Assembly (NCBI RefSeq): GCF_019443125.1
Contig: NZ_JAHYXK010000002.1
Span: forward strand, 310,001-374,000
Direction: 5' to 3'
DNA from: Pontibacter aydingkolensis
Lineage (GTDB): Bacteria > Bacteroidota > Bacteroidia > Cytophagales > Hymenobacteraceae
Length of the DNA stretch: 64,000 nucleotides
Part shown: piece by piece, positions 39,905-60,420 of the stretch
Layout of the letters: each line of letters begins with the position of its first letter
How positions within the stretch are numbered: position 1 is the first letter of the stretch
Notes under the pieces: generated by a model
Database searches by the model: none
The model's input: only the letters and a program-made list of their open reading frames with translations
Told to the model about the DNA's origin: nothing
Translations under genes and position numbers: made by a program

Positions 39905-39933
39905 CAGTATAAAGGCGCTGATGATGTTAGTCT
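39905..39933 (-). promoter_or_regulatory. Phage late promoter (leftward, DUF5675)
   Basis: On the minus strand AGACT begins at 39933 and TTTATACTG spans 39913-39905, 20 bases from the start of one to the start of the other. The leader TCAAATCTGACAGTGTAA to the ATG is nearly identical to that at 56486-56503. Confidence 0.8.
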
Positions 39934-39934
39934 A

Positions 39935-40158
39935 TTAGTGTATCGGCATAAGTAAGGGGTTGGTATTCTTACACTATAGTTAGCTTAAACTCCTCTCAAT
40001 TAGTGTATCGGCATAAGTAATGTGTGCTTACATCTCTTATCCTTCTCGCCTCCTTTATTTAGTGTATCGGCATAAGTAATGTACGCTTACTTTATTATAC
40101 ACTCTTTCTACTAATCCCTTCTTAGCTTCTCCTTTCTTCTATTATGCCGATACACTAA
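39935..40158. repeat. Four-copy regulatory-type repeat in the divergent phage control region
   Basis: The core TTAGTGTATCGGCATAA occurs at 39935, 40000 and 40059 in direct orientation and once inverted at 40142-40158. Direct copies extend to AGTAA and are followed by a short palindrome (for example AAGTAA-TGTACGC-TTACTT after copy 3). Copy 1 lies one base upstream of the -35 of the leftward late promoter. The whole region 39887-40272 (386 bases) has no gene. It probably holds operators or iterons. Confidence 0.85.
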
Positions 40159-40272
40159 AAATATTTTGAAAATATTCAGACAAATGGTCAAACGGAGAGG
40201 ATAATGTCAAATACATAATGATATAAAATGTTGCTGCAAAGCGACATCTAAAAAAAGTACGAGACTAAAAAG

Positions 40273-41013
40273 ATGTACCACAACACTACAACAACCGAAA
40301 CCCTAAATGAAAACTTACCTGCTGTAATACCACCAGTACTGAAGACAGACGACTTCGTATTTGACGCTGACAAGATGATACTTGTAGACATCTCTGGTTA
40401 TTGGAGATACGCCCAGTTTATAGGCGCAGAAAGAGTAAACAAAAAGTTAGGTACCAAAGGCTACAAAGAATTCTGCGTGAAAGATTCTACTCAGGATTTC
40501 AACAACAAGCCACACCACGAATGGCTGAAAGACGATTACAAGTCTCACATGATAGGCATCTTCGGTGAACTAGCTTACGGATTAGAAGCAGGTTTACAGC
40601 CAAATATGGAACTGCTTGAGTTTGGCGACGGCAATCAAGATTTCGCGGATGTAGACATTAAATCTTGCTGGATTGACCATCCTGAAATGAGTAAATATCT
40701 AATTGAAAACTGCTACAAGAAAAACAAGAATCAAATAACAAAATACTATGTGAAAGCTGCTATTTCACTTCAGTACAAGAAAGTTGTGCTTGTAGGCTGG
40801 TTAACTGGCGAAGAATTATGCAAGGGACACATCAAAAATTACGGTAAGGGTAACGCTAAATGGGGCGACGACGGAAACAGATTCGCAGTACATTACTCTG
40901 ACCTAAATAGTATGTACACCTTCCCTCCTCTGGTAAACCAGAAAAAGAAAATACTATCCAAGACTATTGGCTTCGCAAACAGATTCCAGCAACAGCTTAA
41001 GCTAAGCGCATAA
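40273..41013 (+). CDS. Putative PD-(D/E)XK nuclease-like phage protein
   Basis: 246 residues, no family recognised with certainty. A restriction-nuclease-like core is visible: GIFGELAYGLEAGL (Glu99), then NQDFADVDIKS with Asp126, Asp128 and Lys130 in the D-I-K position, followed by a helix and strand, YYVKAAISLQYKKVVLVGWLTGEEL, a usual continuation of that fold. If correct it cuts DNA, perhaps in packaging, degradation of host DNA or recombination. It is the first rightward gene after the repeat region and ends at a hairpin terminator. The assignment is inference from motif order. Confidence 0.5.
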   Translation: MYHNTTTTETLNENLPAVIPPVLKTDDFVFDADKMILVDISGYWRYAQFIGAERVNKKLGTKGYKEFCVKDSTQDFNNKPHHEWLKDDYKSHMIGIFGELAYGLEAGLQPNMELLEFGDGNQDFADVDIKSCWIDHPEMSKYLIENCYKKNKNQITKYYVKAAISLQYKKVVLVGWLTGEELCKGHIKNYGKGNAKWGDDGNRFAVHYSDLNSMYTFPPLVNQKKKILSKTIGFANRFQQQLKLSA

Positions 41014-41024
41014 AAAAGTAAAAA

Positions 41025-41061
41025 TGTGCCGATTGATGAAAAACGGAAGTCAATCGGCACA
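41025..41061 (+). terminator. Hairpin after the nuclease-like gene
   Basis: TGTGCCGATTGA pairs with TCAATCGGCACA around a 13-base loop; an AT tract follows rather than a pure T run. Confidence 0.7.
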
Positions 41062-41112
41062 TATATATTTTAACACGATGCTATTCGTGTCTAAAATTCC
41101 CCTCACTATGAA

Positions 41113-41721
41113 TTGAATACCGAATTAACTAACCAAGAGAAAGCTGACAAATTCCTAAGTATATGCGGAGAGGATAAGAATATCAAGAAGCACATGATTT
41201 ACAAAGTGCTTAAAGTGCATCACAGCTACCTGACATCAGACTTTGATGATTTCTACCAAGACACCCTTTTTGCTTGTTACAATGCGATATTGAAGTACGG
41301 CAGAGTTGACGACTGCCCCGAAAAATATAAAGGCTACTTGTATAGCGCTTTAAGAAACAACTATCAGGAACACCAGAAAAGAGACACAAAATATTCCAAC
41401 CAGTTCGTCCACCTTTACCTGAACCCGGATGAATCAGACTACTCTGATGGTTTATTAACAGACGATTTCCTAACAGAAGGTGAAGAACTCAGCAACAGAG
41501 AAGCCTATGAACTGGAAGAGTTAGAGGACTCAAAAGAAATAGTCAAACTGGTGTATCAGCTTGACGAACCGCTGCGAGAACCAGTACTGCTTCACTACCT
41601 CAACAAAAAAAGCTATAAGCAGATAGCAAAAATACTTGGCATCAGTTTCCATATGGTCAGGAACAGGCTGTACATGGCTAGACAGGAACTGAAAAATAAA
41701 ATGGAGAAAGGAAAATTGTAA
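41113..41721 (+). CDS. Phage-encoded ECF-like sigma-70 family factor
   Basis: 202 residues from a TTG at 41113. The region-2-like part is YLTSDFDDFYQDTLFACYNAILKYG...YLYSALRNNYQEHQKRDTKY. The region-4 helix-turn-helix is LDEPLREPVLLHYLNKKSYKQIAKILGISFHMVRNRLYMARQEL. Regions 1 and 3 are absent, as in ECF sigma factors. An ATG-AAT-TGA mini-frame overlaps the TTG, and the nearest upstream in-frame stop is at 41092, so the start may instead be a later Met (residue 28). It precedes the terminase genes. It is the best candidate to recognise the ten ARACA/TTTATACTG promoters, whose AAC-like -35 suits ECF factors. Some phage proteins of this type act as small terminases, an alternative. Confidence 0.72.
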   Translation: MNTELTNQEKADKFLSICGEDKNIKKHMIYKVLKVHHSYLTSDFDDFYQDTLFACYNAILKYGRVDDCPEKYKGYLYSALRNNYQEHQKRDTKYSNQFVHLYLNPDESDYSDGLLTDDFLTEGEELSNREAYELEELEDSKEIVKLVYQLDEPLREPVLLHYLNKKSYKQIAKILGISFHMVRNRLYMARQELKNKMEKGKL

Positions 41722-42053
41722 TGGCAGAAGAAACAGAAGAACCTCAGAAAAATAAAGGAGGACGACCAAAGGGGGCTACTACCAAAAAGAAAGGGCTAAA
41801 TGAAGATGTACGGGATGTCCTTGATAAAAAACTGAAACGGCTTGCCTTAGAAGCATTGGAATCTGATGATGTTTCAGAGAAGGAAAAGATGGCAATCATC
41901 CGGGACCTACTACCTTATGCCGCTTCAAAGAAGACGGAAGAAAAGAAAGAGATACCTGAAAACCTGAAGTTTGTAAAAATCATCATCAAGGGTTACAACC
42001 CAGGTGAAGACCCTTTTGCAGACGACGATAAACCAGAAGAAACAGAAGAATAG
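41721..42053 (+). CDS. Probable small terminase subunit
   Basis: 110 residues, starting in an ATG that overlaps the sigma gene stop (TAATG). The N-terminus is basic (GGRPKGATTKKKG), a helical middle follows (LDKKLKRLALEALESDDVSEKEKMAIIRDLLPYA) and the tail is acidic. The assignment as TerS rests on its position directly before large terminase and on its size and charge; there is no diagnostic motif. Confidence 0.45.
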   Translation: MAEETEEPQKNKGGRPKGATTKKKGLNEDVRDVLDKKLKRLALEALESDDVSEKEKMAIIRDLLPYAASKKTEEKKEIPENLKFVKIIIKGYNPGEDPFADDDKPEETEE

Positions 42054-42056
42054 TTG

Positions 42057-42076: not shown

Positions 42077-42087
42077 TTCCTGTTTAT

Positions 42088-42117
42088 AGACTATCCCCAC
42101 AAAGCCCATTTATACTG
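42088..42117 (+). promoter_or_regulatory. Phage late promoter P1 (terL)
   Basis: AGACT at 42088, TTTATACTG at 42109-42117 (21 bases start to start), 18 bases to the ATG at 42136. Confidence 0.75.
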
Positions 42118-42135
42118 CTAAACAGCACATAGTGA

Positions 42136-43524
42136 ATGGGAAATACTAAACAAATAACGGTCAAAACTAACCAATGGGTAATAGATAAAGTTCTTACATC
42201 AAAAGCCAGATACCTGGTACTTAAAGGCGGCGGTTCAAGCGGCAAGTCAAACGGGGCATTTTTAAAAATAGTACTCCGTGTACTGAGTGAACCGAAGCAA
42301 CGCATACTGGTAGTACGAAAAGTAGCATCAACCCTTAAAGAGTCCTGCTACAAAGATATTGAAACCCACATCAATGAGATGGGGCTTAACTACCGCTTTA
42401 CTTTTTACTCCCAACCATTAAGAATTAAGGACAACTTCAACGGCAATGAAATCCTGTTTGCAGGTCTTGACGACGTTGAACGCCTGAAGTCCATCAAAGG
42501 TATCTCTTCCATAATGATTGAAGAGGCAAGCGAGATTGATGAACATGACTTCATGCAACTTGACCTTCGACTTCGTGACAGGAACCCGAACTACAAGCAG
42601 ATTATACTTGCTTTCAACCCAGTCTCAGAAGACTTGTGGATTAAGAAGTATTTCTTTGATGTAAGAAATCCTAAAGCGGATTTAGTAGAAACCACCTTCC
42701 TTAACAATGCCTTCCTGGACAAGGACAGTAGAGAAGTGCTTGAAAAGGAGATGAAGAAGAGTAAGCACTACTACCAGGTATACGCATTGGGAGAATGGGG
42801 CACGCCAGACACATCCGGACTCTTCTATAACCAGTTTGACTTAGACAAGCACGTCCGTGACAATGGTGAAGCCGATTATGACCCGGATAAGCATATCTAC
42901 CTTAGCTGGGACTTTAACGTGCTGCCTTCTGTGTCTTTACTGGTCTCACAGCTTTCGGATGATGGCAGAGAACTCAGGATTGTGGACGAAGTACACCTAC
43001 CCTACCCGAATAACAACACGCTTCATATAGTACAGGAATTCAAGCGCAGGTATTCAGGCCACACAGCAGGTATAACTTACTGCGGTGACCCAAGTGGTAA
43101 GAATCAAGGAACGACCACTAACGCAGGATTCAACAACTATACCATCATTAAGGAAGAGTTGCTAGAGTTCTACCCTATTGACAGGGTTCAGTCAAAGCAC
43201 CCATCTGTACAGCAGCGTGGCCTTTTCATCAACTCCATCTTTGAAAGTAATTACCAAGGGCTGAACATCATCATCAACAAGAAGTGTAAGAAGCTAATTG
43301 AAGACCTCTCATTCCAGAAGCAATCAAATACAGGTAAGGACAAGTCAAAGGTAAAGGACCGTAACACAGGCCAGTCCTGGGAACGCTACGGCCACTTCTC
43401 GGACGCTTTTGACTACCTGACTACCGTTTTGTTTGCAGTTGAGTTTGACATCTTCCAGCGAGGCAAAAGGGCCTTTACTTACGAACTGGGCTACCACGAA
43501 ATCAGCAGTAGGTATGCTTTCTAA
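42136..43524 (+). CDS. Phage terminase large subunit
   Basis: 462 residues. The ATPase that drives DNA into the prohead and the nuclease that cuts concatemers are both present. Walker A GGGSSGKS lies at 31-38 and Walker B SIMIEEASEID at about 126-135 with catalytic Glu. The RNase-H-like nuclease acidic residues are Asp259 (YLSWDFNVLP), Asp318 (YCGDPSGKN) and Asp423/426 (FSDAFDYL). The domain order fits the PBSX/Terminase_3 class. It is preceded by late promoter P1. Confidence 0.95.
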   Translation: MGNTKQITVKTNQWVIDKVLTSKARYLVLKGGGSSGKSNGAFLKIVLRVLSEPKQRILVVRKVASTLKESCYKDIETHINEMGLNYRFTFYSQPLRIKDNFNGNEILFAGLDDVERLKSIKGISSIMIEEASEIDEHDFMQLDLRLRDRNPNYKQIILAFNPVSEDLWIKKYFFDVRNPKADLVETTFLNNAFLDKDSREVLEKEMKKSKHYYQVYALGEWGTPDTSGLFYNQFDLDKHVRDNGEADYDPDKHIYLSWDFNVLPSVSLLVSQLSDDGRELRIVDEVHLPYPNNNTLHIVQEFKRRYSGHTAGITYCGDPSGKNQGTTTNAGFNNYTIIKEELLEFYPIDRVQSKHPSVQQRGLFINSIFESNYQGLNIIINKKCKKLIEDLSFQKQSNTGKDKSKVKDRNTGQSWERYGHFSDAFDYLTTVLFAVEFDIFQRGKRAFTYELGYHEISSRYAF

Positions 43525-43530: not shown

Positions 43531-43560
43531 AGACAAACTCAGTCTATTCAATTTATACTG
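43531..43560 (+). promoter_or_regulatory. Phage late promoter P2 (gp36-portal-MuF unit)
   Basis: AGACA at 43531, TTTATACTG at 43552-43560 (21 bases), 21 bases to the ATG at 43582. Confidence 0.75.
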
Positions 43561-43581
43561 CTATAAAAGAATAGACTGAAC

Positions 43582-43986
43582 ATGATTTTTCTAACCCAAA
43601 GCGATTTTGATGCGGCCATTAAGGCAGAGAACTTAACCCAGATTCTGGATAACAATCCAACACTGCTTGACGCGGTAGTTCTCGCAGCGGTACAGGAGGT
43701 GCAATCATACCTGAAAACTAAGTTTGATGTAGCTGCCATTTTTTCTACAGTAGGCGAAGCCAGAAACTCACAGATAGTGATGTATTGTGTAGACATTGCA
43801 CTATACCACATACACGCGAGAGTAGCACCGAGACAACTTCCTGAAGCAAGACTGGCAAGGTACGAACAGGCCATTGACTGGCTTAAGCTGGTGATGCGGG
43901 GTTCAATCATACCTGACCTACCACTATTGCAGAACGACGCAACTACATCGCTGCAATGGGGTTCGCAACCACAGTTCAGATACTAG
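43582..43986 (+). CDS. Mu gp36-like head-tail connector (DUF1320)
   Basis: 134 residues. FLTQSDFDAAIKAENLTQIL, then VQSYLKTKFDVAAIF and IVMYCVDIALYHIHARVAPRQLPEARLARYEQAIDWL match the DUF1320/gp36 helical connector pattern. It is thought to join the portal to the tail. It starts the unit driven by P2 and is followed closely by the portal gene. Confidence 0.82.
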   Translation: MIFLTQSDFDAAIKAENLTQILDNNPTLLDAVVLAAVQEVQSYLKTKFDVAAIFSTVGEARNSQIVMYCVDIALYHIHARVAPRQLPEARLARYEQAIDWLKLVMRGSIIPDLPLLQNDATTSLQWGSQPQFRY

Positions 43987-46066: not shown

Positions 46067-46096
46067 AAACAACACCTGACTGTGGCCTTTATACTG
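46067..46096 (+). promoter_or_regulatory. Phage late promoter P3 (gpG-like/fibre/LamG unit), leaderless type
   Basis: AAACA at 46067, TTTATACTG at 46088-46096 (21 bases), then only CT before the ATG at 46099. Confidence 0.8.
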
Positions 46097-46098
46097 CT

Positions 46099-46512
46099 AT
46101 GATAGGCTTAACACAGAATGGCGATTTCGATTTCGACAAGATACTGAGTCAACTAAGCGGTGAATTCAAGAGAGAAGTTACCACGAAGGTAGCACAGCAT
46201 TCCCTCCTATTCTTCAAAGTACAGTTCCAGAAGCAGGGTACGGATAAAGACGGCTTTGTGAAGTGGAAAGAACGGAAGTTAAAGGTTAACCGGAAGATGC
46301 TTGTGGAAACAGGCTACCTCAGAGACTCCATGAAAATCACTTCCCAGAGGTTTGAGAGAGTCAAGATAGCGATTACAGCGCCTTACGCGGAATACCACCA
46401 GAACGGCACCGATACCCTACCACAAAGGGAAATGGTCTACGAATCCAACAAGCTGAACAAACAGGTGGAATCAATCATCAAGAAAGAACTTGACAAAATT
46501 TTTAAACGCTAA
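46099..46512 (+). CDS. Phage virion morphogenesis protein, Mu gpG-like
   Basis: 137 residues from the ATG at 46099. The typical pattern is FDKILSQL, KWKERKL...MLVETGYLRDSMKI, then APYAEYHQNGTDTLPQREMVY, the Phage_tail_S/gpG family (tail completion or morphogenesis). An upstream in-frame GTG at 46036 lies within the terminator and is rejected. The stop codon abuts the next ATG. Confidence 0.88.
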   Translation: MIGLTQNGDFDFDKILSQLSGEFKREVTTKVAQHSLLFFKVQFQKQGTDKDGFVKWKERKLKVNRKMLVETGYLRDSMKITSQRFERVKIAITAPYAEYHQNGTDTLPQREMVYESNKLNKQVESIIKKELDKIFKR

Positions 46513-48729
46513 ATGAAATTAATATATGAAGCGCTGAAACAGCACATCCTAACCAAAGTGCCTGAGGTGCAAGATGTAAGACTATTCAATAACCAGGTAC
46601 AGAACATGGAGAAAGGTTCTGACACCCTATACTTACCGTCAGTGTTGATTGAGTTCAGTAATATTGAGTACGGACACAAGAACCATCTAAACCAGTATGG
46701 TAAAGCTTCTGTTAAATTCCATATCGTTACGGAAGACTATAATAGTTCACCTGAAATCGGCTTTACTGTACGTGAAAATGTTAACAGGGCACTAAACAGG
46801 TATTCAGACGGAGTGAACTTTTATCCCCTTGAAAGAGTGGGCGAAGAACCTGATACGAATTTCACCAATGTATACGTGTATGTTGCTGAATTCAAAATGG
46901 ACTTCATACACTACCTGACGCCTGAGACACCTGCTGACACAGCAGAAGTAATGGTAGACCTGATGATTACAGAGACTGAAAAGTCGGTAATCGTTCCGGT
47001 ACAAGATGAACCAGCTAAGATAGTACAGGGAGAAACGGTTTTCTACCTAGATAGAAACAATACTTATACATTCCCCGAGTACTCTGAGGTAAATCATACG
47101 CACGACGAATATGCACTTAAAACGGATTTAAATACTATTGATTTATCCTCTAAGGCTGATGTAGACCACATACACCCAAACTTGGTTACAGACGACGAAC
47201 TGTCTACTGGTTTGGCGTTGAAGGCTGATACTGTACACACTCACCCAGAGTACGCATTGAAAACCGATTTGCAGAATGTAGACCTTTCTTCCAAGGCTGA
47301 TGTAGACCACAACCACAACGATATTTACTACACACAGGCTGACGTTGACAACAAGATAATTGCTATCACAACTAATCTGGACTGGCGGGGCAGCGTTGAC
47401 ACATACGCACAGCTTGCCACAACCTACCCAAGTCCACTGCAAGGCTGGACTGTGACTGTCAACGCCGATGGCAAGGACTACAGGTACAACGGCACTTCCT
47501 GGGTTGACATAGGCAACAACTCCGTTCCTATGGCTTCGACTACAGTTGACGGTAGGATGAGTAAGACACATTTCACTACGGTAAACAACCTGCCTACTAC
47601 CCACTACACCAAGACTGAGGCGGATACGGCTTTCAAGAACGCATCTAACCTTACCACAGGTACTGTCAGTGACTCAAGGCTATCTACTAACATCGCAAAG
47701 AAGAACGAAGCCAACACCTTCACAAGCAACGTAACAGTAGGCGGAGATTTAAGCGCAGCAGGGTTTACGAGAGGTATGTTGATGTCTTCCGGCCACAGTA
47801 ACTGGCTTAGCTTTGCAGACAAGAGGTTCAATGTTACAATGACGGAAAACGGGGTTCCGACCAACTCGTCTATGGTGGGGCAGCTGTTCAATGGCCGTAC
47901 CAACGCAGCGTACTCTTTCCTGGAACCTAACACTAAGTGCCCGATGGTCATAGAGATTACAGGGTTCCCAACTATCGCTACCACTGTAGACTTCAGGCCT
48001 TATTTCCTGGGTTGGAGGGACGGCGGCAGCGGAGGCGGTTTCAAGAATTGGAAGGTTGAGATGTACTGCTATACTGATGGCGGTAGCACTGGCCCGCAGG
48101 CTTGGGTGCCTGTATTGGACAGGACAAACGACACAACTACATTCCCCTTTACTATATTAAGCTGGAACAACGACGGGGTTACGCATGCTGCCGGTTATCC
48201 AGGTTCTTATTTGTACGCTACTGGTATACGCATCACCATCAACGAGTTCATAGTGCCTGCTAACGGTAGGGTGTACCTTACACATTTCGGTGCCAGGTAT
48301 TCGGCAGGCGCAGCGCCCTGGGATTCTGTAGGTGCACTATCTGCAGGCGGCGGTGAGGTGTACGGCGACTTGAATGTAGACAAGATTTTAAATAGGAAGA
48401 ATAACCTTTACTCAAGTGTTGCTTTTACTGACACAGGTGTTGAGTTGAGTACCTCTATTACGGCGAATGTCGCTGCAAAATCAATTAATGTAAGTACTTC
48501 TACGTCAAATGCAGGGGACCTGCACCAGTTCATAAAGGGCAGCAATGTGGTTGCAAGAATAGACCACACCGGAAAGTTCTACGGTAATATTGATACCACA
48601 GCCCTACCAACGGGTACAGTTACATCAACGGGTTCACCTCAGACGGTAAGTAAGATGTGGGTAGGCACACAAGCGCAGTACGACGCTATTGCTACGAAAG
48701 ACGCAAATACAATCTACTTCATACAATGA
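46513..48729 (+). CDS. Tail-terminator-like domain fused to a tail-fibre
   Basis: 738 residues. Residues 1 to about 155 look like a small tail-terminator/gp37-type domain (YEALKQHILTKVPEVQDVRLFNNQVQ, YLPSVLIEFSNIEYGHKN, KASVKFHIVTEDYNSSPE). A linker follows, then fibre repeats with His-rich turns (YALKTDLNTIDLSSKADVDH; YALKTDLQNVDLSSKADVDH), a GTSWVDIGNNSVP module, and a long C-terminal receptor-binding-like region ending QYDAIATKDANTIYFI. Tail terminator and fibre are normally separate genes, so this is an unusual fusion. It ends at ATGA, overlapping the LamG gene. Confidence 0.68.
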   Translation: MKLIYEALKQHILTKVPEVQDVRLFNNQVQNMEKGSDTLYLPSVLIEFSNIEYGHKNHLNQYGKASVKFHIVTEDYNSSPEIGFTVRENVNRALNRYSDGVNFYPLERVGEEPDTNFTNVYVYVAEFKMDFIHYLTPETPADTAEVMVDLMITETEKSVIVPVQDEPAKIVQGETVFYLDRNNTYTFPEYSEVNHTHDEYALKTDLNTIDLSSKADVDHIHPNLVTDDELSTGLALKADTVHTHPEYALKTDLQNVDLSSKADVDHNHNDIYYTQADVDNKIIAITTNLDWRGSVDTYAQLATTYPSPLQGWTVTVNADGKDYRYNGTSWVDIGNNSVPMASTTVDGRMSKTHFTTVNNLPTTHYTKTEADTAFKNASNLTTGTVSDSRLSTNIAKKNEANTFTSNVTVGGDLSAAGFTRGMLMSSGHSNWLSFADKRFNVTMTENGVPTNSSMVGQLFNGRTNAAYSFLEPNTKCPMVIEITGFPTIATTVDFRPYFLGWRDGGSGGGFKNWKVEMYCYTDGGSTGPQAWVPVLDRTNDTTTFPFTILSWNNDGVTHAAGYPGSYLYATGIRITINEFIVPANGRVYLTHFGARYSAGAAPWDSVGALSAGGGEVYGDLNVDKILNRKNNLYSSVAFTDTGVELSTSITANVAAKSINVSTSTSNAGDLHQFIKGSNVVARIDHTGKFYGNIDTTALPTGTVTSTGSPQTVSKMWVGTQAQYDAIATKDANTIYFIQ

Positions 48730-49409: not shown

Positions 49410-49439
49410 AAACAACAGATTGAAAGGCCATTTATACTG
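49410..49439 (+). promoter_or_regulatory. Phage late promoter P4 (baseplate J unit)
   Basis: AAACA at 49410, TTTATACTG at 49431-49439 (21 bases), 18-base leader TCAAAGAAAACGGTATAA to the ATG at 49458. The leader closely matches those of P8 and the leftward promoter. Confidence 0.8.
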
Positions 49440-49457
49440 TCAAAGAAAACGGTATAA

Positions 49458-50288
49458 ATGGCACGTTCAATAGAAGAAATTTTCAACCAAATACTAGACG
49501 CTAAGAATTCTGAACCTGAGTTAGCATCGCTTAATTCCAGTTCAAAGACTGCTTTGTATAGACTGTTCGCATACTGCTTCGCGGTGGCTACCCATTTCCA
49601 TGAAAGAACCTGGGAGTTGTTCAAAGTCGACTTAGAGAAGATAGCGGAAGAGGCCAACGTAGGCACAAACAAGTGGCTGCAACGCAAAGCCCTGGAATAC
49701 CAGCACGGTTCAACCTTGTCTGTTATTGGTGACACGGTACAATATAATACCATTGACGACACCAAGAAGATAATCACCAGGTGTTCAGTAAAAGAGAATA
49801 ACCTGAATAGAAACGTACTGGTGAAGGTTGCGAAAGATAACGGTACGGGCGGCTTAACAAGGCTGACAGACAATGAGATGTCTGGTCTGAGGTCTTACCT
49901 GAACCAGATAAAGATGGCAGGCACCAAGCTTATACTTACTTCGCTGGACGCTGACAGAATAAGTGTTTACGGTGACATCTACTACAACCCTGCTTTCCTG
50001 CCTGAGACTGTAAAAGAGAATGTTGTAAATGCAATCAACAGCTACTTTGCTTCTATCGACTTCAGCGGTAACGTCTATGTATCAAAACTACAGGACGCGA
50101 TACAGGCAGTAGAAGGCGTGCAGGATGTGCAGATATTTGAAATCAAGTGCAGGATGCACACGGATGATATTAACAGCGCTACAGCGCATGAAAGGGTGTA
50201 TGAGTCTTATGCAGGTTATGTACTAAGCGAGAATACAACCTCTTACACATTGGATGATACTATCACAATGAAACCATTCGAGGGATAA
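49458..50288 (+). CDS. Baseplate J-like protein
   Basis: 276 residues. The Bacteroidetes-type short baseplate J layout is recognised from SIEEIFNQILDAKNSEPELASLNSSSKTALYRLFAYCFAVATHFHERTWELF and the later VYGDIYYNPAFLPETVKENVVNAINSYFASIDFSGNVYVSKLQDAIQAVEGVQDVQIFE. It forms the wedge of a contractile-tail baseplate. It is unusually placed before the head protease and capsid genes. Confidence 0.8.
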   Translation: MARSIEEIFNQILDAKNSEPELASLNSSSKTALYRLFAYCFAVATHFHERTWELFKVDLEKIAEEANVGTNKWLQRKALEYQHGSTLSVIGDTVQYNTIDDTKKIITRCSVKENNLNRNVLVKVAKDNGTGGLTRLTDNEMSGLRSYLNQIKMAGTKLILTSLDADRISVYGDIYYNPAFLPETVKENVVNAINSYFASIDFSGNVYVSKLQDAIQAVEGVQDVQIFEIKCRMHTDDINSATAHERVYESYAGYVLSENTTSYTLDDTITMKPFEG

Positions 50289-50803: not shown

Positions 50804-51652
50804 ATGAATAAGAAATTTATTTCACCGCTGCCATCAGGCGGTGTTCCAATTACATCAGAAGACTTCCTGATGATTCAGGATGAATTACACGAAGCGTTAA
50901 ACTCACTTTGCGCAGGCATAAACGATGCTTTTGTTATCAGCGGCTGTGATGTGTCTTTTAACGGCTTTAATATTGCAATAGGCGCAGGTGTGGTATTCGT
51001 CGACAGTCAGGTGATGAAGTTCGACGGTTATACTGGCAGTTTCCCTTGCTATGTTAAGGCAGGTACTGTTGTAAAATCACCACGCATCTACAAAGACGGT
51101 TTTTCAAAGGACACCATAACACAAAGAAAAGCTATCTGCAATACCTCGACATCTGGTAACGGCGTGATTAAGTTTAACCCGATGCCTGAAAAGACTTTAA
51201 AGTACAGCATCACTTCTTATGTCGATGGTAGAATTACACAGGAGATAACAGACAGAACCAACGGAGATACCAGCTTAAACAACCGGATTACTTCTGAGGT
51301 AGCTGCGCTGACGAATAGCATCAACACAAAGCTTACCAAGACAAACGAAGCCTGGCAAAACGCCACATATAATGCAGGTACTACCAATTTCGGTTCCGGT
51401 TCAAAACCTGCACAGTATAAGAAGACTTCTGACGGCATCGTATTCTTGCGCGGGCAAATGTCAATTTCAGTTTCTACTGGTGGTGGTTATACCTCATTTA
51501 CTTTACCGGCTGGTTACAGACCATCACAGGATATGGCATTCAAAACGATTAATACTTCTGGTACTGTTGCCGCTGACGGTAGGGTAATGATGTATACTGC
51601 AGAAGCAGGCGTGTGGACTTTGGACGGTATAAGCTTCATAGCTGAACAATAA
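50804..51652 (+). CDS. Tail fibre with C-terminal receptor-binding module
   Basis: 282 residues. The N-terminal attachment part (PLPSGGVPITSEDFLMIQDELHEALNSLC) is followed by a trimer-type helical stalk (ITSEVAALTNSINTKL). The C-terminal module AWQNATYNAG...AQYKKTSDGIVFLRGQMSIS...YTSFTLPAGYRPSQDMAF is typical of fibre tips. It is the second of three fibre-like proteins in the prophage. Confidence 0.78.
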   Translation: MNKKFISPLPSGGVPITSEDFLMIQDELHEALNSLCAGINDAFVISGCDVSFNGFNIAIGAGVVFVDSQVMKFDGYTGSFPCYVKAGTVVKSPRIYKDGFSKDTITQRKAICNTSTSGNGVIKFNPMPEKTLKYSITSYVDGRITQEITDRTNGDTSLNNRITSEVAALTNSINTKLTKTNEAWQNATYNAGTTNFGSGSKPAQYKKTSDGIVFLRGQMSISVSTGGGYTSFTLPAGYRPSQDMAFKTINTSGTVAADGRVMMYTAEAGVWTLDGISFIAEQ

Positions 51653-51679
51653 ACAAACCTGGGAGAAGTCTTTATACTG
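51651..51679 (+). promoter_or_regulatory. Phage late promoter P5 (protease-scaffold), leaderless type
   Basis: AAACA at 51651, TTTATACTG at 51671-51679 (20 bases), then only AT before the ATG at 51682. It overlaps the stop codon region of the fibre gene. Confidence 0.8.
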
Positions 51680-51681
51680 AT

Positions 51682-52884
51682 ATGGAATTAAGATATACAC
51701 ACATAGACGAGTCAATGGAATCTGCAGTAATGCTGCTGAAAGGTACAATTGGTCTTGAGGTTGATACTGTCCAGTTCGTGAATGAAATCAAATACCTGGA
51801 AAAACTGGGAGTAGAGAACCTGGAAATCAGAATCAACTCTGGCGGCGGTTCGGTGCTTGCTGGTTACGACATAGTAGACGCATTGCTTACTACTCCAATG
51901 AACACCACTACTTACATAGCTGGTATGGCAGGCAGTATGGCAGGTGTGATTGCAATGGCTGGTAAGACTGTAAGGATTGTTAATTACGGTTTACTGATGA
52001 TACATTCAGTAGGCGGCATAGATAATCCTGCTGTGATTGAGAAATTCAACCAATCACTGATAGCTATTTTCAACACAAGACCTGGCATCAACAAATCCTA
52101 CATGGAACAGCTGATGGCAAAGGAAACTTTCTTCACGGCACAGGAAGCCATAGACGCAGGATTTGTGGATGAAATCGTAGCGACAAATCACACTATAACA
52201 CAGGATGCCCGAAATACTTCTCTGGAAGAATTGGTGAACATCTATAATAAAATCGACATCAAAGTAATGGAAGAACCTAAAGTTGAAGAAACTGTAATTG
52301 AAAACGCTGAGGTAGTTGTAGAGACTCCTGAGGTAATAAATGAAGAAGCTGTAACTGAAGAGGTAATAGCGGAACCCGAAGAAGCAAAGGTAGAAGAACC
52401 TAAAGAAGAAGCGGTAGCTGAAGAGTCTGCTGATGAACTGAAAGCGAAGCTGGAAGAACTTGCAAAGGCAAACGAAGTACTTACGGCAAAGCTTGCTGAA
52501 CAGGAAAAAGTTGCTAATGAACTGGTTGAGAAAGAAAATAACCGTCTGAAAGCAGAGAAAGAAGCTAAAGAAATGGCTGTTATAAACTCTGCCCTGGAAG
52601 CAGGTAAGATTACAGCCGATGTAAAAGATACCTGGGTAAACTTCATCAAGATTGATTTCGACGGCGCTAAAAAGGCCTTAGATAACATCGTAGTAAACAA
52701 GGCATCTGTTGACATCATGGACATCGTGAATAAGTCTACTGCTGCTAATGCAATTCCTACAGAGAAAACTTTCCGTCAGCTTGAAAAGGAAAACCCTGCT
52801 GAACTCGAAAGAATACTGAACGAAACGCCAGAGATATTCAAGGAAATGTACAAGAGAGAGTACGGCGTTTACCCTACCCTATAA
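51682..52884 (+). CDS. Head maturation protease (ClpP-like) fused to scaffold
   Basis: 400 residues. The N-terminal S14/ClpP-like protease has LEIRINSGGGSVLAGYDI, the nucleophile Ser85 in GMAGSMAGVIAMAG and His108 in LMIHSVGG, with AQEAIDAGFVDEI closing the fold (about 165). Residues about 195-300 are an Ala/Glu/Lys/Val-rich coiled-coil, and the end (KTFRQLEKENPAELERILNETPEIFKEMYKREYG) resembles capsid-binding scaffold tails. One polypeptide thus supplies scaffold and its own protease. It is followed by a terminator and the capsid gene. Confidence 0.88.
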   Translation: MELRYTHIDESMESAVMLLKGTIGLEVDTVQFVNEIKYLEKLGVENLEIRINSGGGSVLAGYDIVDALLTTPMNTTTYIAGMAGSMAGVIAMAGKTVRIVNYGLLMIHSVGGIDNPAVIEKFNQSLIAIFNTRPGINKSYMEQLMAKETFFTAQEAIDAGFVDEIVATNHTITQDARNTSLEELVNIYNKIDIKVMEEPKVEETVIENAEVVVETPEVINEEAVTEEVIAEPEEAKVEEPKEEAVAEESADELKAKLEELAKANEVLTAKLAEQEKVANELVEKENNRLKAEKEAKEMAVINSALEAGKITADVKDTWVNFIKIDFDGAKKALDNIVVNKASVDIMDIVNKSTAANAIPTEKTFRQLEKENPAELERILNETPEIFKEMYKREYGVYPTL

Positions 52885-52982: not shown

Positions 52983-53011
52983 AGACAAATTTTCAGCACC
53001 CCTTTATACTG
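52983..53011 (+). promoter_or_regulatory. Phage late promoter P6 (major capsid)
   Basis: AGACA at 52983, TTTATACTG at 53003-53011 (20 bases). The leader to the capsid ATG is 53 bases, the longest of the set and A-rich. Confidence 0.8.
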
Positions 53012-53064
53012 TTAGCTGCGGTGAAAAGCCACACAAAAAAACCAAAAAAAAGAAGCTAACAATT

Positions 53065-53967
53065 ATGGCATTAAACAAAGAACTTTGGATTGCCGACATC
53101 CAAGAAGCTATAAAAATGGACTCTCCATTTTTAGCTACAGTAACTAACCACGATGCTTATATCGTGAACCGTACAGTACACGTACCACAGGCTGGTTCGG
53201 TAATAGACATACAAGTTGACCGTACTGTACTTCCTGCAGGTGTGCTACAAAGAACTGACAGCGAATTAACTTACGACATTCGCCAGTTTACTATTAGCCC
53301 AGTAAGAATTACTGACCTAGAGACTGCACAGATTTCTTACGACAAGCGTCAGTCTATCCTAGGTGAAGGTTTCCGTACCCTTGCAGAGAGAATGGGTAAC
53401 GAAGCCCTAAAAGAATACGCAAAAGGTGCTATCACAAAAGTAACCACTTCAGGTACTGCTACTAACACGGCACTTGCTGAAGGTGTTTCTACCAACCGTA
53501 AAGCAGTTACTACTGCTGACATCATGAAGCTTGCCCAAGTGCTTGATAAGCAGGGCATGCCAAAGAATGGCAGAAAGCTAATTATGCAGACTGATATGTT
53601 CTATCAGCTTCTAGCACAAGACAACATGCTTAATTCTGCTTACAATGGTTTCGCTAACAACGCGCTAGAAACTGGTGTTGTATTGAAGCTATTCGGTTTT
53701 GACATCAGCATCCGTCCATTTGTTGCAGTTTATGCGACCGATGGTACACCGAAGGACTTCGGTGCTGCTGGTGTTGGTACCGATAACCTAGCTTGTATTG
53801 CATACCATCCCTCTGCTGTAGCAAAAGCTATGGGCGCTACTGAAATGCTTTATGATGAAAACAACCCTGTGTACTACGGTTCTATCCTAAGTGCCATCCA
53901 GTGGGCTGGTTTCTCTAAGCTTCGCGCTGACAATAAAGGTGTTGTAGCACTTGTCCAGTCTGTTTAA
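53065..53967 (+). CDS. Major capsid protein
   Basis: 300 residues. The fold type is recognised from position after the protease-scaffold gene, length and sequence features: QEAIKMDSPFLATVTNHDAYIVNRTVHVPQAGSVIDIQVDRTVLP, RQSILGEGFRTLAERMGNEALKEYA, and LDKQGMPKNGRKLIMQTDMFYQLL, which resembles HK97-fold capsids of Bacteroidetes phages. It has its own promoter with a long leader and a terminator, fitting very high expression. Confidence 0.85.
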   Translation: MALNKELWIADIQEAIKMDSPFLATVTNHDAYIVNRTVHVPQAGSVIDIQVDRTVLPAGVLQRTDSELTYDIRQFTISPVRITDLETAQISYDKRQSILGEGFRTLAERMGNEALKEYAKGAITKVTTSGTATNTALAEGVSTNRKAVTTADIMKLAQVLDKQGMPKNGRKLIMQTDMFYQLLAQDNMLNSAYNGFANNALETGVVLKLFGFDISIRPFVAVYATDGTPKDFGAAGVGTDNLACIAYHPSAVAKAMGATEMLYDENNPVYYGSILSAIQWAGFSKLRADNKGVVALVQSV

Positions 53968-55616: not shown

Positions 55617-55634
55617 TTATCACCACCTATCAAA

Positions 55635-55667
55635 GAAAGGGAATCCTGAAAGACAGGATTCCCTTTC
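55635..55667 (+). terminator. Perfect 14-bp hairpin overlapping late promoter P7
   Basis: GAAAGGGAATCCTG pairs with CAGGATTCCCTTTC around AAAGA. Only a weak T-rich tail (TCCTTTAT) follows. The -35 of P7 (AGACA at 55651) lies in the loop and right arm. Confidence 0.75.
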
Positions 55668-55679
55668 TCCTTTATACTG
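55651..55679 (+). promoter_or_regulatory. Phage late promoter P7 (tail chaperones)
   Basis: AGACA at 55651, TTTATACTG at 55671-55679 (20 bases). The likely start codon is the ATG at 55705, 25 bases on. Confidence 0.7.
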
Positions 55680-55704
55680 GTATATAAAATTGGAATACCA
55701 GGAA

Positions 55705-56262
55705 ATGAAAAACACACAAGAATTAGCAGGTACATTTACCCTGACTGTTACAGACAACAACGGTAAAGAGTACAACACCATCATCAAGAAAGGAAGCATT
55801 GAAGAGAGAAAGAAAATACACCTTACTATCGGTACTGATGATTACTTCCCGTTAGCGGAACAATTCATCAAGAATAACCTAGTAAGTGGCGATAATCTTT
55901 TTGCTGATGAAGAGGCGCTTTATGCGGCAACAACACGCCTAATGGAAGTTGTTACTTTCAACGCGGCAAAATTAGTAGACACACCTGAAGGCATCAATGC
56001 AGCATTCAGTATTGAAGCAACCGATACAAACGGTAACACCTTACTTGCACATTTTGAGAAGCCAAGTGTCCAGGTGAAAAAGAAGCTGTTTACAATGCTT
56101 ACAAAAGGCGTTGACAACCCCTTTACATTAGGTGAAGTTATGGTGCTTGAATGCTTCTTAGAAGGAGACGAGTTAAACAATGATGCGGAAGTATTGGCAT
56201 CGGCGGCAATGATATTATCATCTTATATCGAAAGCTATAACATCGTTATAAAAAAAAATTAG
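55705..56262 (+). CDS. Tail assembly chaperone, short form
   Basis: 185 residues from the ATG at 55705 (a TTG at 55690 would add five residues but lacks support). The protein is acidic and helical, located between tail tube and tape measure, where tail chaperones always lie. Its last codons are ATA AAA AAA AAT TAG. The nine-A run gives a slippery A_AAA_AAA, and a second open frame lies in the -1 frame just after it, so it is probably the G-type short product of a G/GT pair. The fold assignment is by position. Confidence 0.68.
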   Translation: MKNTQELAGTFTLTVTDNNGKEYNTIIKKGSIEERKKIHLTIGTDDYFPLAEQFIKNNLVSGDNLFADEEALYAATTRLMEVVTFNAAKLVDTPEGINAAFSIEATDTNGNTLLAHFEKPSVQVKKKLFTMLTKGVDNPFTLGEVMVLECFLEGDELNNDAEVLASAAMILSSYIESYNIVIKKN

Positions 56263-56455: not shown

Positions 56456-56485
56456 AAACACACCTGTAAACGGGCCTTTATACTG
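56456..56485 (+). promoter_or_regulatory. Phage late promoter P8 (tape measure-hub-spike unit)
   Basis: AAACA at 56456, TTTATACTG at 56477-56485 (21 bases), 18-base leader TCAAATAACACAGTGTAA to the ATG at 56504. Confidence 0.85.
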
Positions 56486-56503
56486 TCAAATAACACAGTG
56501 TAA

Positions 56504-58147
56504 ATGGCTAACATAGTTGAATATGTAATATCACTCAAAGATAAATTCACCTCACCGATGCAGCGTGCAAACAGGAGTGTTCAGCAACTGAATAACTCAG
56601 TAGGCAGGATGCGAGGTACTACCGCATCGGCATCTAAAGGTGTCAATGTATTGGGCGCTGGCTTTAGTATGATGGGCTTGTCTATTGCCGGTGTAGTAGC
56701 TGGTTTAGGCGCAGCCATCTATAAGGTTGGGCAGATGGGTATGGAGATGGAACAGACGCGGGTAAGGTTTGAGACCTTTACCGGTTCTGCTGAGAAAGGC
56801 AACGCTGTCATAAAGGAGTTACAGAAGTTCGCTATTGCTACACCATTTGACGACGCACAAGTACTAAAGGCAGGCCAGTCCTTATTGGCTTTCGGTATAG
56901 AAGCCGAGAACCTGAAACCCATACTTTCCACGCTGGGAAATATCTCATCTGCAACTGGCAAAGACTTCAATGAACTTGTAACCATTTACGGTAAGAATAA
57001 GCTGGCTGGCATTATCCAGGCAGAAGACCTGAACCAGCTGACAGAAGCCGGTATTCCGGTATATGAGTCCCTGGCAAAACAGATGGGTGTAAGTACTGAC
57101 CAGGTTAAAAAGATGGGTAGCGAAGGTAAAATCTCCTTTGCTATGCTTGAGAAGTCATTTGACGAACTGGGCGGTAAGTCCGGTAAGTGGGGCGACTTGA
57201 TGGAGAAGCAGTCAAAGACTTTTGGCGGCAGGCTATCATCATTAATGGGTATGGTACAGAACCTGGGTTCAGGCTTAGGTGAAATGATGCTTCCAATGAT
57301 GGGGTCTATAGTTGACGCAGGCAATACTTTAATGACCTTCATCAACACCAATAAGAAAAGGCTTGGTTCTATGTTCAAGCCACTGATGGACGCGTTTAAA
57401 CCCATCAAAGACGCCTTCGTGCAAATCCGAAAAGAAATGGGCATGACAGGTGATAGTAGCGAGATGCTTAAATCTGTATTTAATGGTATCGCTACGGTAA
57501 TCAAGTTGGTATCCCCTATCATCAAAATGTTCGCGACTGTCCTTGCTACAGTTTACACAAGTGTCTTTAAGATTATCAAGGCCTTTGCAGACTGGTACAA
57601 GAGAACAGAATGGATTCAGAAGGCAGTTAAATTCCTTTACCTCACTTTCAAGTATGCTTTCGAGGACATCGCTACTATGGCTACCAAAATCTTTGGTGGT
57701 ATAGGTGATATGATTGCTGGCGTGTTCAATACTGATTGGGACCAGGTTAAAAAAGGTGCAGCTTCCATTGGTGATGGTATCTATAAAAGCAATGAGGAAA
57801 TAGCCGAACAACAAGCCAGGATGAAGAAAGACTGGGAAGCCCCAATGACAGTTGATATGTGGGCAGACGAGAAATCGACTTCAACCATAGCAGACGAAGT
57901 AAGTGATGCTACTAATTCAAAAGCTTCAAAGGCGGCTGCTTCTGCCAGTGCAGACAAGAAACTGGAATCGGCTATCGGTTCAGCTTCCGGTTCAAAAAGC
58001 ACCACCATCGACATCAGGATTGACAAGCTTATTGAACGCTTCGAGAACTACAACACCAACATCAACGAGTCGAAAGAAAACATCAGGAAGATGGTGTTGG
58101 AAGCATTAACAGGCGCAGTGTCCGACCTGTCAGCAAATTATAATTAA
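56504..58147 (+). CDS. Tape measure protein
   Basis: 547 residues. The tape-measure domain is clear: VEYVISLKDKFTSPMQRANRSVQQLNNSVGRM, a hydrophobic GFSMMGLSIAGVVAGLGAAIY segment, QTRVRFETFTGSAEKGNAVIKELQKFAIATPFDDAQVLKAGQSLLAFG, then LTEAGIPVYESLAKQMG. A second hydrophobic zone lies at about 325-365. The length would set a short tail of very roughly 80 nm by the usual 1.5 angstrom per residue rule. Confidence 0.93.
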   Translation: MANIVEYVISLKDKFTSPMQRANRSVQQLNNSVGRMRGTTASASKGVNVLGAGFSMMGLSIAGVVAGLGAAIYKVGQMGMEMEQTRVRFETFTGSAEKGNAVIKELQKFAIATPFDDAQVLKAGQSLLAFGIEAENLKPILSTLGNISSATGKDFNELVTIYGKNKLAGIIQAEDLNQLTEAGIPVYESLAKQMGVSTDQVKKMGSEGKISFAMLEKSFDELGGKSGKWGDLMEKQSKTFGGRLSSLMGMVQNLGSGLGEMMLPMMGSIVDAGNTLMTFINTNKKRLGSMFKPLMDAFKPIKDAFVQIRKEMGMTGDSSEMLKSVFNGIATVIKLVSPIIKMFATVLATVYTSVFKIIKAFADWYKRTEWIQKAVKFLYLTFKYAFEDIATMATKIFGGIGDMIAGVFNTDWDQVKKGAASIGDGIYKSNEEIAEQQARMKKDWEAPMTVDMWADEKSTSTIADEVSDATNSKASKAAASASADKKLESAIGSASGSKSTTIDIRIDKLIERFENYNTNINESKENIRKMVLEALTGAVSDLSANYN

Positions 58148-58152: not shown

Positions 58153-58758
58153 ATGGAAAGAGATTATCAACTACCTAAGACATACCAGCAACTACAGACA
58201 AACAAGCTGGAACTGGTCACTACTACTTTCGCTAACGCATATGTAAAACCAGCGCTGTATGAGAAAGCTTTTGGCGATACCTCAGCTTTTCTGGGCAGGC
58301 AACTAATTACTACCGTGAAGCTGGTACTACCGGACTATGAGATTGAAAAGTATGATTTAAGAACCAGTAAATGGGAAAAAGTAACAGTCCCTGGTGATGA
58401 AATATTACTGGACACGGTGCTTGTGGAAATTTCATCTTCAAAGAATATCGTACAGACTGCCATTAACGGTATGCATGGTACTGTGAAGGAATACATATCT
58501 AATGGTGATTATGAAGTTACCATCAGCGGTGCTATAGTTTCTAAAGGCAAAGGCTTTCCTGCCGAGGAAGTAAGAACACTCAACAACATTCTGCATGCCC
58601 CTATTGCTATCAAAGTAGAATCAGAATTGCTTTCCCTCTTCAGCATCTACAACCTGGTGGTGACATCAGACTCTTTCCCATCCCGTGAAGGCTACACCAA
58701 CACGCAGCTATTCAGCTTCAACGCACTAAGCGACGAACCGCTGGAATTAAAACTCTAA
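58153..58758 (+). CDS. DUF6046-like tail/baseplate protein
   Basis: 201 residues, 5 bases after the tape measure. I associate the pattern (FLGRQLITTVKLVLPDYEIEKYDLRTSKWEKVTVPGDEILLDTVLVEISSSKNIVQTAINGMHGTVKEYISNGDYEVTI) with DUF6046, found in Bacteroidetes phages, from memory. Its place between tape measure and hub suggests a tail-tip or hub-adaptor role like the DNA circularisation or LysM protein of other phages. Confidence 0.65.
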   Translation: MERDYQLPKTYQQLQTNKLELVTTTFANAYVKPALYEKAFGDTSAFLGRQLITTVKLVLPDYEIEKYDLRTSKWEKVTVPGDEILLDTVLVEISSSKNIVQTAINGMHGTVKEYISNGDYEVTISGAIVSKGKGFPAEEVRTLNNILHAPIAIKVESELLSLFSIYNLVVTSDSFPSREGYTNTQLFSFNALSDEPLELKL

Positions 58759-58766
58759 CAAGTTGA

Positions 58767-59744
58767 ATGAAACGATTAACTAATCTGATAAAGATAGGCC
58801 AGCATGAAATCAATTATGTATCCGAGGTAGAGATAGAGTCCAGTTATGAGAACTTCACTGACAAGTGTACCATCAGGATGCCAACTAAAATCCAGTGGCA
58901 GGGCAAGCCGATTATCCAGGGCAGCAACAACACCATCTTCAAGATAGGCGACAAAGTGGAAGTTAACCTGGGTTACGACTTCAAAAACCAGAAAACCTTC
59001 ACCGGCTATGTGACAAAGGTAAGTACGCAAACACCACTTGAGATTGTCTGCGAGGATGCGATGTACCTGTTCAAGAAAGTTACCTACAACAAAAGCTTCA
59101 AAAAGGTAAGCCTGAAAGAACTGGTTGATTTCTTAATGGAAAAGATTGACGAGAAATTCAAAGTCAATATAACAATGGACGTACAGCTAGGCCAGTTCAT
59201 CATCAAGAAGGCTACGGGTGTGCAAGTGTTAGAGGAACTTAAGAAGACTTACGGCATTAACAGCTTCTTCAGGGACGGTGAATTGTACGTGGGCATGGCC
59301 TACAACACCAAGAATACCACAAGCTACCGCCTGGAAAAGGAATTCGTATTTCAGCAGCAAATTATAGACGACTCCCTGGAATACTTATCAGCTGAGGACA
59401 GAAAGATTAAAATCAAAGCCACCAGCATTGACGACAAGAACCAGAAGATTGAGTATGAGACAGGCGACGCAGACGGAGAGTCCCGCGACATCTTTGCTTA
59501 TAACCTTTCTGCGAAAGACCTGAAAGTGCTGGCTGATAACAGCATCAGCAAGTACAAGTACAGCGGCTTTGAAGGCGACTTCACCACTTTCGGAAACCCT
59601 CGCGTCAGACACGGCGATGCGGCCAAGCTGGTTGACTGGCAATACCCTGAGAGAAACGGCACTTACATAGTAAAGGCAGTTACGACCACTTTCGGTAACA
59701 ACGGCTTCAGGCAGCAGGTAACGCTGGCCCAAAAAATATCCTAA
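58767..59744 (+). CDS. Baseplate hub protein (gpD / Mu gp44-like)
   Basis: 325 residues with the hub pattern: INYVSEVEIESSYENFTDKCTIRMP, KVEVNLGYDFKNQKTFTGYVTKVSTQTPLEIVCEDAMYLFK, and a middle GVQVLEELKKTYGINSFFRDGELYVGM. The end is YSGFEGDFTTFGNPRVRHGDAAKLVDWQYPERNGTYIVKAVTTTFGNNGFRQQVTLAQK, typical of late-control/gp44 hubs. It carries the spike and connects tube to baseplate. Confidence 0.88.
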   Translation: MKRLTNLIKIGQHEINYVSEVEIESSYENFTDKCTIRMPTKIQWQGKPIIQGSNNTIFKIGDKVEVNLGYDFKNQKTFTGYVTKVSTQTPLEIVCEDAMYLFKKVTYNKSFKKVSLKELVDFLMEKIDEKFKVNITMDVQLGQFIIKKATGVQVLEELKKTYGINSFFRDGELYVGMAYNTKNTTSYRLEKEFVFQQQIIDDSLEYLSAEDRKIKIKATSIDDKNQKIEYETGDADGESRDIFAYNLSAKDLKVLADNSISKYKYSGFEGDFTTFGNPRVRHGDAAKLVDWQYPERNGTYIVKAVTTTFGNNGFRQQVTLAQKIS

Positions 59745-59751
59745 CCCATAG

Positions 59752-60174
59752 ATGAACATACAGAATGCAATACAGCGCCTGGCAAACAACAAGGAGTACT
59801 ACAGTTCTATAGCAGAGGTAACTGCTGTGAATGGCAACACCTGCGACGTGCTACTGCTGAGGGAAGACCTGGAATTATTTGATGTAAGGCTGAGTGCTGG
59901 TGAAGGCAAAGGCTTTGTGGTTACGCCTAAGGTGGGTTCTAAAGTACTGGTAAGCTACCTGAATGAAACGAATGCTTTTGTGTCTATGGTTGAGACTGCC
60001 GAACTGTATACCATCCAGACAGAGAATGAATCCCTCAAAGCCATCCTTTCTGACTTCTTTGATGCTATAGGAAGAATGACGGTAACAACCGCTATGGGCC
60101 CATCTGGTACGCCCATCAATGCGATGGACTTCACAAATCTCAAGACCAGACTAAACAAACTATTAAAAGAGTAA
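59752..60174 (+). CDS. Baseplate spike/OB-fold protein (Mu gp45 / gpV-like)
   Basis: 140 residues. The OB-fold pattern is IAEVTAVNGNTCDVLLLREDLELFDVRLSAGEGKGFVVTPKVGSKVLVSYLNETNAFVSMV. A helical tail follows (LKAILSDFFDAIGRM...NLKTRLNKLL). It follows the hub gene, as in Mu. No metal-binding HxH tip is visible, so the tip may be on another protein. Confidence 0.72.
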   Translation: MNIQNAIQRLANNKEYYSSIAEVTAVNGNTCDVLLLREDLELFDVRLSAGEGKGFVVTPKVGSKVLVSYLNETNAFVSMVETAELYTIQTENESLKAILSDFFDAIGRMTVTTAMGPSGTPINAMDFTNLKTRLNKLLKE

Positions 60175-60392
60175 TGGCACTGGTAAAACAAACACTGGAA
60201 ATGCAGGTACTGAACCTGTTGACAGACCTAAGCAAGAGGACCGAAAATCCACAACAGGCTAACCAGGATTTCGCAAGGGAGTTGGCTACCATCATTGACA
60301 ACTACATCAAGTCTGCTACGGTGACGGTTACTGTGGCGACTACCGGAACTGCTGCGGCACAAACTGGTACAGGGACAGGCAATCTTTCCTAA
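60174..60392 (+). CDS. Small phage protein, unknown
   Basis: 72 residues, starting in a TAATG overlap with the spike gene. A helical N-terminal part (LEMQVLNLLTDLSKRTENPQQANQDFARELATIIDNYI) is followed by a Thr/Val/Ala/Gly-rich tail (VTVTVATTGTAAAQTGTGTGN). No family is recognised. It is conserved in position in this type of phage as far as I recall. Confidence 0.6.
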   Translation: MALVKQTLEMQVLNLLTDLSKRTENPQQANQDFARELATIIDNYIKSATVTVTVATTGTAAAQTGTGTGNLS

Positions 60393-60420
60393 ACACACCG
60401 CTAAAACCCCATTTATACTA
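60391..60420 (+). promoter_or_regulatory. Phage late promoter P9 (gp25-fibre unit), leaderless type
   Basis: AAACA at 60391 (overlapping the upstream stop), TTTATACTA at 60412-60420 (21 bases), then only AT before the ATG at 60423. The final G is A here, the only variant of the element. Confidence 0.75.

Follow-up and report, generated by a model that had tools for sequence, protein, structure and literature searches.

We report that a prophage of Pontibacter aydingkolensis carries ten copies of a two-box promoter together with a gene for an extracytoplasmic function (ECF)-type sigma factor, and we consider it very probable that this phage sigma factor drives the ten late promoters and that leaderless starts or start-codon hairpins gate translation of the genes behind them. 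The analysis covers a 64,000-nucleotide (nt) stretch of the genome (NCBI RefSeq assembly GCF_019443125.1, contig NZ_JAHYXK010000002.1, positions 310,001 to 374,000 of the forward strand), which we call the window and in whose numbering all coordinates are given. In the mechanism that we propose, the prophage's own ECF-type sigma factor would be made before the late stage and would bring host RNA polymerase to ten ARACA-N15/16-TTTATACTG-N-Y-A(+1) promoters, which would drive nearly all head, packaging and tail genes as well as a separate leftward DUF5675 gene. Transcription would begin 11 bases past the first T of the -10 box, and the three genes with an ATG at that position would give leaderless messenger RNAs (mRNAs). 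At several other genes the -10 box, which would itself not be transcribed, is complementary to the start-codon region; RNA reading in from upstream would fold and hide the start codon, and RNA begun at the late promoter would lack the 5' arm and be translatable.

Promoter motif and sites

Ten TTTATACT(G/A) sites each have an ARAC box starting 20 or 21 bases upstream (AAAC in five of ten and AGAC in the other five, with A as the fifth base in eight and T in two), and the positions, strands and base counts given in a preliminary description of this DNA were all reproduced. The window holds 15 copies of TTTATACTR where 1.7 are expected, and the combined pattern ARAC-N16/17-TTTATACT is found 10 times in the 38-kb prophage compared with 0.1 times in dinucleotide-preserving shuffles. 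Counted from the first T of the -10 box (t0), positions +8, +10 and +11 hold R, Y and A, respectively, in 10/10 sites. Pattern searches of the host genome return 119 matches to ARAC..TTTATACT and 8 to the reversed control pattern; this genome has a strong excess of the word TTTATACTT, which swells the counts of simple patterns. The confounder disappears once the R, Y and A columns that follow the box are included: in the 4.72-Mb host genome ARAC-N16/17-TTTATACTRNYA, the extended motif, is matched exactly ten times, always within the prophage, and a mere host bias for the TTTATACTT word is thereby ruled out as the origin of the sites. These columns complete the consensus given above, in which the letters are observed and the +1 is predicted.

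Nine of the promoters face rightward and precede successive transcription units from 42.1 to past 60.4 kb. In order along the forward strand, the first eight combine TTTATACTG with AGACT-N16 before the terminase large subunit gene (42088-42120, putative +1 at 42120, gene at 42136), AGACA-N16 before a gp36-like gene (43531-43563, gene at 43582), AAACA-N16 before the virion-morphogenesis gene (46067-46099), AAACA-N16 before a gene for 276 amino acids (49410-49442, gene at 49458), AAACA-N15 before the Clp-type protease gene (51651-51682), AGACA-N15 before the capsid gene (52983-53014, gene at 53065), AGACA-N15 before an open reading frame (ORF) of 190 amino acids (55651-55682, ATG at 55705) and AAACA-N16 before the tape-measure gene (56456-56488, gene at 56504); the ninth has AAACA-N16-TTTATACTA before a gene for 101 amino acids (60391-60423). 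The gene behind the site at 46088 begins with ATG at 46099; the mechanical ORF list had placed its start at GTG 46036. The single leftward promoter, AGACT-N15-TTTATACTG on the reverse strand at 39902-39933 (putative +1 at 39902), is placed for the DUF5675 gene at 39482-39886. As a separate observation, a strong inverted repeat, AAAGGGAATCCTG/CAGGATTCCCTTT, lies at 55630-55670 just 5' of the box at 55671, and its loop holds the AGACA -35 box.

Sigma factor

The preliminary description had noted one ECF-like sigma gene at 41113-41721, and the product of this forward-strand gene (202 amino acids, TTG start) does match TIGR02937 at 62.7 bits (cutoff 42.9), with residues 32-197 aligned to positions 14-165 of the 165-position profile. 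Pfam detects only region 4, the part that recognizes the -35 box: Sigma70_r4_2 is matched at 1e-11, and also in the two homologues from related phages described below, while Sigma70_r2 by itself finds no match in the protein. A profile of the three phage sigma homologues matches SigW over residues 20-195 (1e-8), which is the best match to a solved structure. The TIGR02937 and SigW spans give an architecture in which region 4 follows directly on region 2, without regions 1 and 3, and by these sequence matches the product is a full-length sigma factor of ECF (group 4) type. The AlphaFold model of the protein is weak (mean predicted local distance difference test score 64, from a three-sequence alignment) and serves as support only; the top Foldseek match of this low-confidence model is an ECF sigma factor in an initiation complex, and its VIA-align matches cover chiefly region 4.

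The sigma gene has a TTG start in all three phages (41100-41120 here, L002:3450-3470 and L027:2475-2490 in the relatives), and in all three this start overlaps an out-of-frame upstream ATG mini-ORF, an overlap that is possibly a form of translational control.

Conservation in related phages

Sigma-carrying relatives are represented by two IMG/VR phages, here called G914 (L002 and L035) and G915 (L027, L036 and L037); L045 and L049 have the same sequence as G914 and bring no further information. Both phages share the local gene order of the prophage, namely an ORF like that at 40273-41013, the sigma gene, a small ORF and the terminase gene. Identity to the prophage proteins is 69% for the terminase and 41-44% for the sigma factor, and the G+C content is 30% in the relatives versus 43% here.

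The two-box promoter is present at 10/10 orthologous gene starts in G914 and 9/10 in G915, compared with a frequency among the remaining late genes of 2/12 and 0/12 (Fisher 1e-4 and 2e-5, respectively, on counts tallied by hand from the promoter table). The spacer of each gene is mostly unchanged. Given in the order prophage/G914/G915, it is 21/21/21 for the terminase, gp36-like, 276-amino-acid and tape-measure genes, 20/20/20 for the capsid gene, the 190-amino-acid ORF and the leftward DUF5675 operon (whose promoter has minus-strand orthologues in both relatives), 20/21/20 for the protease, 21/21/20 for the 101-amino-acid gene and 21/21/absent for the gene at 46099. The -10 box varies by phage (TTTATACTG; TTTATAnnn; TTTATATAG), and AAAC and TTTA are constant.

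A relaxed motif, ARACA-N15/16-TTTAWANWR, occurs 8 times in the prophage versus 0.2 in shuffles, 6 versus 0.5 times in G914 and 8 versus 0.9 times in G915, and it is at chance in the Flavobacterium phages lotta8-1 (0 versus 1.0) and FPSV-S1 (0 versus 0.4), neither of which has a sigma homologue. In gene content the prophage resembles Winoviridae-like Bacteroidota phages, sharing with these two a terminase and Mu-like head and baseplate genes, with approximately 30% identity in the terminase and 38% in the baseplate hub. The expectation that the motif would track the sigma gene is thus borne out by both sigma-carrying relatives and by two phages that lack the gene, and absence of the pattern from sigma-carrying relatives, which had been set beforehand as grounds for abandoning the proposal, is not what G914 and G915 show. 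More distant terminase relatives (L003-L006) are also without the sigma gene, and the motif is not above chance in L004 and L006; distant baseplate relatives, the fragments L051-L053, have no sigma gene and stray motif matches only. Beyond the three phages, no further sigma carriers were found in 390 genomes of the order searched with the sigma profile, in 395 genomes of the phylum searched with the terminase, in 395 genomes of the class searched with the ORF upstream of the sigma gene, in eight scans of viral contigs and two of genome contigs, or in INPHARED, where tblastn of the sigma factor against 50,697 phage records gave no match at 1e-3.

Start sites and hairpins

The invariant YA at t0+10/11 is likely an initiator that places +1 at t0+11. 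In three genes (46099, 51682 and 60423) ATG A lies at exactly t0+11, and the N-termini of their products, as read from ORF translations, are conserved in the relatives; since the ATG coincides with the putative +1 and the N-termini are conserved, these three messages would probably be leaderless. Of the predicted Flavobacterium johnsoniae transcripts for which a promoter is probable, 87% have a leader of >10 nt (PMC6847099), so that leaderless starts would be an unusual arrangement.

In the prophage itself, five sites have a -10 region that pairs with a stretch reaching or crossing the start codon (z from -2.9 to -6.3). On the reverse strand, the inverted repeat TTTATACTGTCA-4 nt-TGACAGTGTAAA(TG) at 39886-39913 places the -10 box in a stem that extends as far as the start codon (z -2.9). 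On the forward strand, CCCATT..AATGGG surrounds the -10 box and start codon at 42105-42140 (z -3.2; -4.0 in G914 and -3.4 in G915), and two repeats enclose the start codon, namely GCCATTTATACTG..CGGTATAAATGGC at 49426-49462 (z -6.3) and GCCTTTATACTGT..ACAGTGTAAATGGC at 56473-56508 (z -3.6). The fifth, AGTCTATTC..GAATAGACT around the -10 box at 43540-43578 (z -3.8), has a stem that stops 4 nt before the start codon; in G914 and G915 the sequence differs but is again paired, with a z that is not significant in an AT-rich setting. The start codons at 39886, 42136, 49458 and 56504 are within or touching a stem. Neither initiator, leaderless starts nor start-codon hairpins were part of the preliminary description, whose picture was to that extent incomplete.

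Swapping arms between genes gives weaker duplexes in each of the three phages (permutation P = 0.001, 0.00009 and 0.009), and 0 of 100,000 permutations were as strong when all 29 sites were pooled, a test in which differing base compositions are mixed. The start region has a predicted accessibility of 0.32 when the RNA reads through and 0.60 when it begins at +1; this gain is larger than in 13 control genes (P = 0.0003) and is stable with +1 placed at t0+9, 11 or 14. In Bacteroidetes, where Shine-Dalgarno sites are lacking, initiation is tuned in part by structure near the start codon (PMC6847099), and the hairpins of the prophage would act at this level. They are not terminators, as no T-run follows them. 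It is also conceivable, although we judge it unlikely, that the -10 inverted repeats are repressor operators or DNA cruciforms and not RNA switches, a reading that concerns the hairpins only: several repeats share TTTATACTGTCA/TGACAGTGTAAA and are near-palindromic as DNA, but the arms differ across genes and orthologues (as with CCCATT/AATGGG and AGTCTATTC/GAATAGACT) with pairing retained, and they often surround the start codon.

Proposed assignment of the promoters to the phage sigma factor

The suggestion that the sigma factor runs a late regulon is well supported by synteny, promoter conservation and SigW-like spacing, from which dependence of the ten promoters on the sigma factor is predicted. 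Several points count against it. The apparent link between motif and sigma factor comes from one clade, with three phages known to carry the gene; the strict motif of the prophage itself has 1 match in G914 and 0 in G915, and the relaxed motif was defined after inspection of the relatives, with shuffles and sigma-less phages as controls. No trigger that would switch the sigma gene on was found. As to the gating of translation, the leaderless genes are without a hairpin, and the pairing at several other sites is weak.

The boxes might instead be promoters for a host sigma factor, primary or alternative, with the phage protein serving something else. TATACT and GACA do resemble general sigma-70 boxes, and related genomes are rich in ECF sigma factors, among which weak relatives of the phage protein were found. 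However, the host genome holds no copy of the extended motif outside the prophage, and the motif is missing from the related phages that lack the sigma gene. The boxes also lack the Bacteroidetes element, in agreement with the earlier remark that none shows the TAnnTTTG form: TAHHTTTG does not occur on the plus strand between 39.3 and 63.1 kb, although it is present elsewhere in the prophage at 65.48, 65.51 and 65.67 kb, with another copy before the tRNA-Phe gene. Taken together, a host sigma factor at these sites seems very improbable to us. Less probable still is that the ARAC box binds a phage activator working with host polymerase in the manner of the Mu C protein, which acts in this way at Mu late promoters; the head genes are Mu-like and the sigma gene lies between two ORFs that match no family, but the box positions and spacing fit contact by an ECF sigma factor, a complete gene for one is present and co-conserved, and the host-type -7 element, on which an activator would still be expected to depend, is absent.

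Prophage and neighbouring genes

The prophage measures approximately 38.5 kb (about 39.3-77.8 kb), is inserted in tRNA-Phe and is bounded by identical 53-bp repeats. By repeat identity, attL is the 3' part of the tRNA-Phe(GAA) gene with a 53-bp core at 39269-39321 on the forward strand, where ARAGORN calls the tRNA at 39247-39320; the second copy is at the window-equivalent position 77760-77812, outside the window, and a tyrosine integrase gene marks the right end. The late genes encode terminase, a Mu-like portal, Mu F and gp36 proteins, the Clp-type protease, capsid, tape measure and baseplate. A Bacteroidetes host is indicated by the TAHHTTTG elements and by the kinship with Flavobacterium phages.

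Two forward-strand ORFs adjoin the sigma gene. The upstream one (40273-41013), which has no assigned function, is co-conserved with it: identity is 46-49% in both sigma-carrying relatives, and no homologue was found in the other loci examined or in the 395 class genomes. It contains a DVDIK stretch resembling PD-(D/E)XK nucleases. The ORF between the sigma gene and the terminase large subunit gene (41721-42053) is kept in both relatives and has no match in Pfam or PHROG; its position suggests the small terminase.

A 21-bp repeat, TTAGTGTATCGGCATAAGTAA, has six copies in two intergenic clusters. Four copies, of which one is inverted, lie at 39936-40160, with the DUF5675 promoter on one side and the ORF upstream of the sigma gene on the other, and two lie at L007 ~3860-3960. 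The repeats are candidate operators governing entry into the late programme. The 738-amino-acid protein encoded at 46513-48729 has about 136 residues in common with a 153-amino-acid protein of the relatives and also has a tail-type domain, as though a tail module had been inserted. Genes for a Tsp45I-type restriction enzyme and an adjoining N6/N4 DNA methylase are carried by the prophage at L007:10127-12250.

Discussion

The closest precedent is the phiEco32-like Salmonella phage 7-11, and the principle of a phage sigma factor with bipartite late promoters is already known. In the part of the published account that we draw on, the 7-11 sigma factor SaPh711_gp47 has a region 4 and works with host core RNA polymerase, and eight bipartite promoters with a 16-bp spacer precede late genes, as ten bipartite copies do here (PMC8948821). 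The 7-11 boxes are GTAAtg-(16)-aCTA, in a Salmonella podovirus, and that system was shown biochemically, whereas that of the prophage is read from sequence; the same part of the account describes no start-codon hairpins or leaderless starts at the 7-11 late promoters, unlike what we find (PMC8948821). Phage phiEco32 itself is there reported to use the sigma factor gp36 for middle and late genes, with promoters at structural genes as in the prophage, but its promoter is the single element tAATGTAtA without a -35 element, and gp36 has no region 4 homology (PMC8948821).

Among cellular sigma factors, Bacillus subtilis SigW has the promoter TGAAAC-N16,17-CGTA (PMC2375139), in which the distance from AAAC to the -10 box is the same as in AAAC-N16/17-TTTA of the prophage; SigW is, however, a stress sigma factor with an anti-sigma, and its -10 box is CGTA in place of TTTATACTG. 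The hairpins have a parallel in phage T4, where gene e is closed by a fold over its start region in early read-through RNA but is translated from late transcripts, which lack the 5' portion, and where late promoters (read with the late sigma factor gp55) lie in the 5' arm of the hairpin at e, soc and I-TevI, as in the prophage (PMC3014915). T4 late promoters consist of the -10-type box TATAAATA only, whereas the prophage has two boxes, and the T4 hairpin is reported at few genes, compared with strong hairpins at 5/10 late promoters here (PMC3014915). The earlier statement that no such system was known in Bacteroidetes agrees with the open-access papers searched, in which we found no description for phages of this phylum; outside the phylum, phage 7-11 precedes it. 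The novelty lies in the phylum, in the temperate lifestyle, in the sequence of the promoter and, for most late genes, in the coupling of promoter with hairpin or leaderless start.

If the proposal is true, it would provide a complete late-transcription switch for Bacteroidota phages. The small sigma/promoter pair comes with 29 naturally aligned promoters and is absent elsewhere in the host genome, in a phylum that has few genetic tools, and it would allow a direct test of start-codon hiding and exposure in bacteria without Shine-Dalgarno sites. More tentatively, and with slightly less than even confidence, we suggest that in this temperate Bacteroidota lineage late genes may be translatable mainly from their own sigma promoter, in a two-step gating by leaderless start or hairpin, which would amount to control at the start site in a phylum that lacks Shine-Dalgarno sites.

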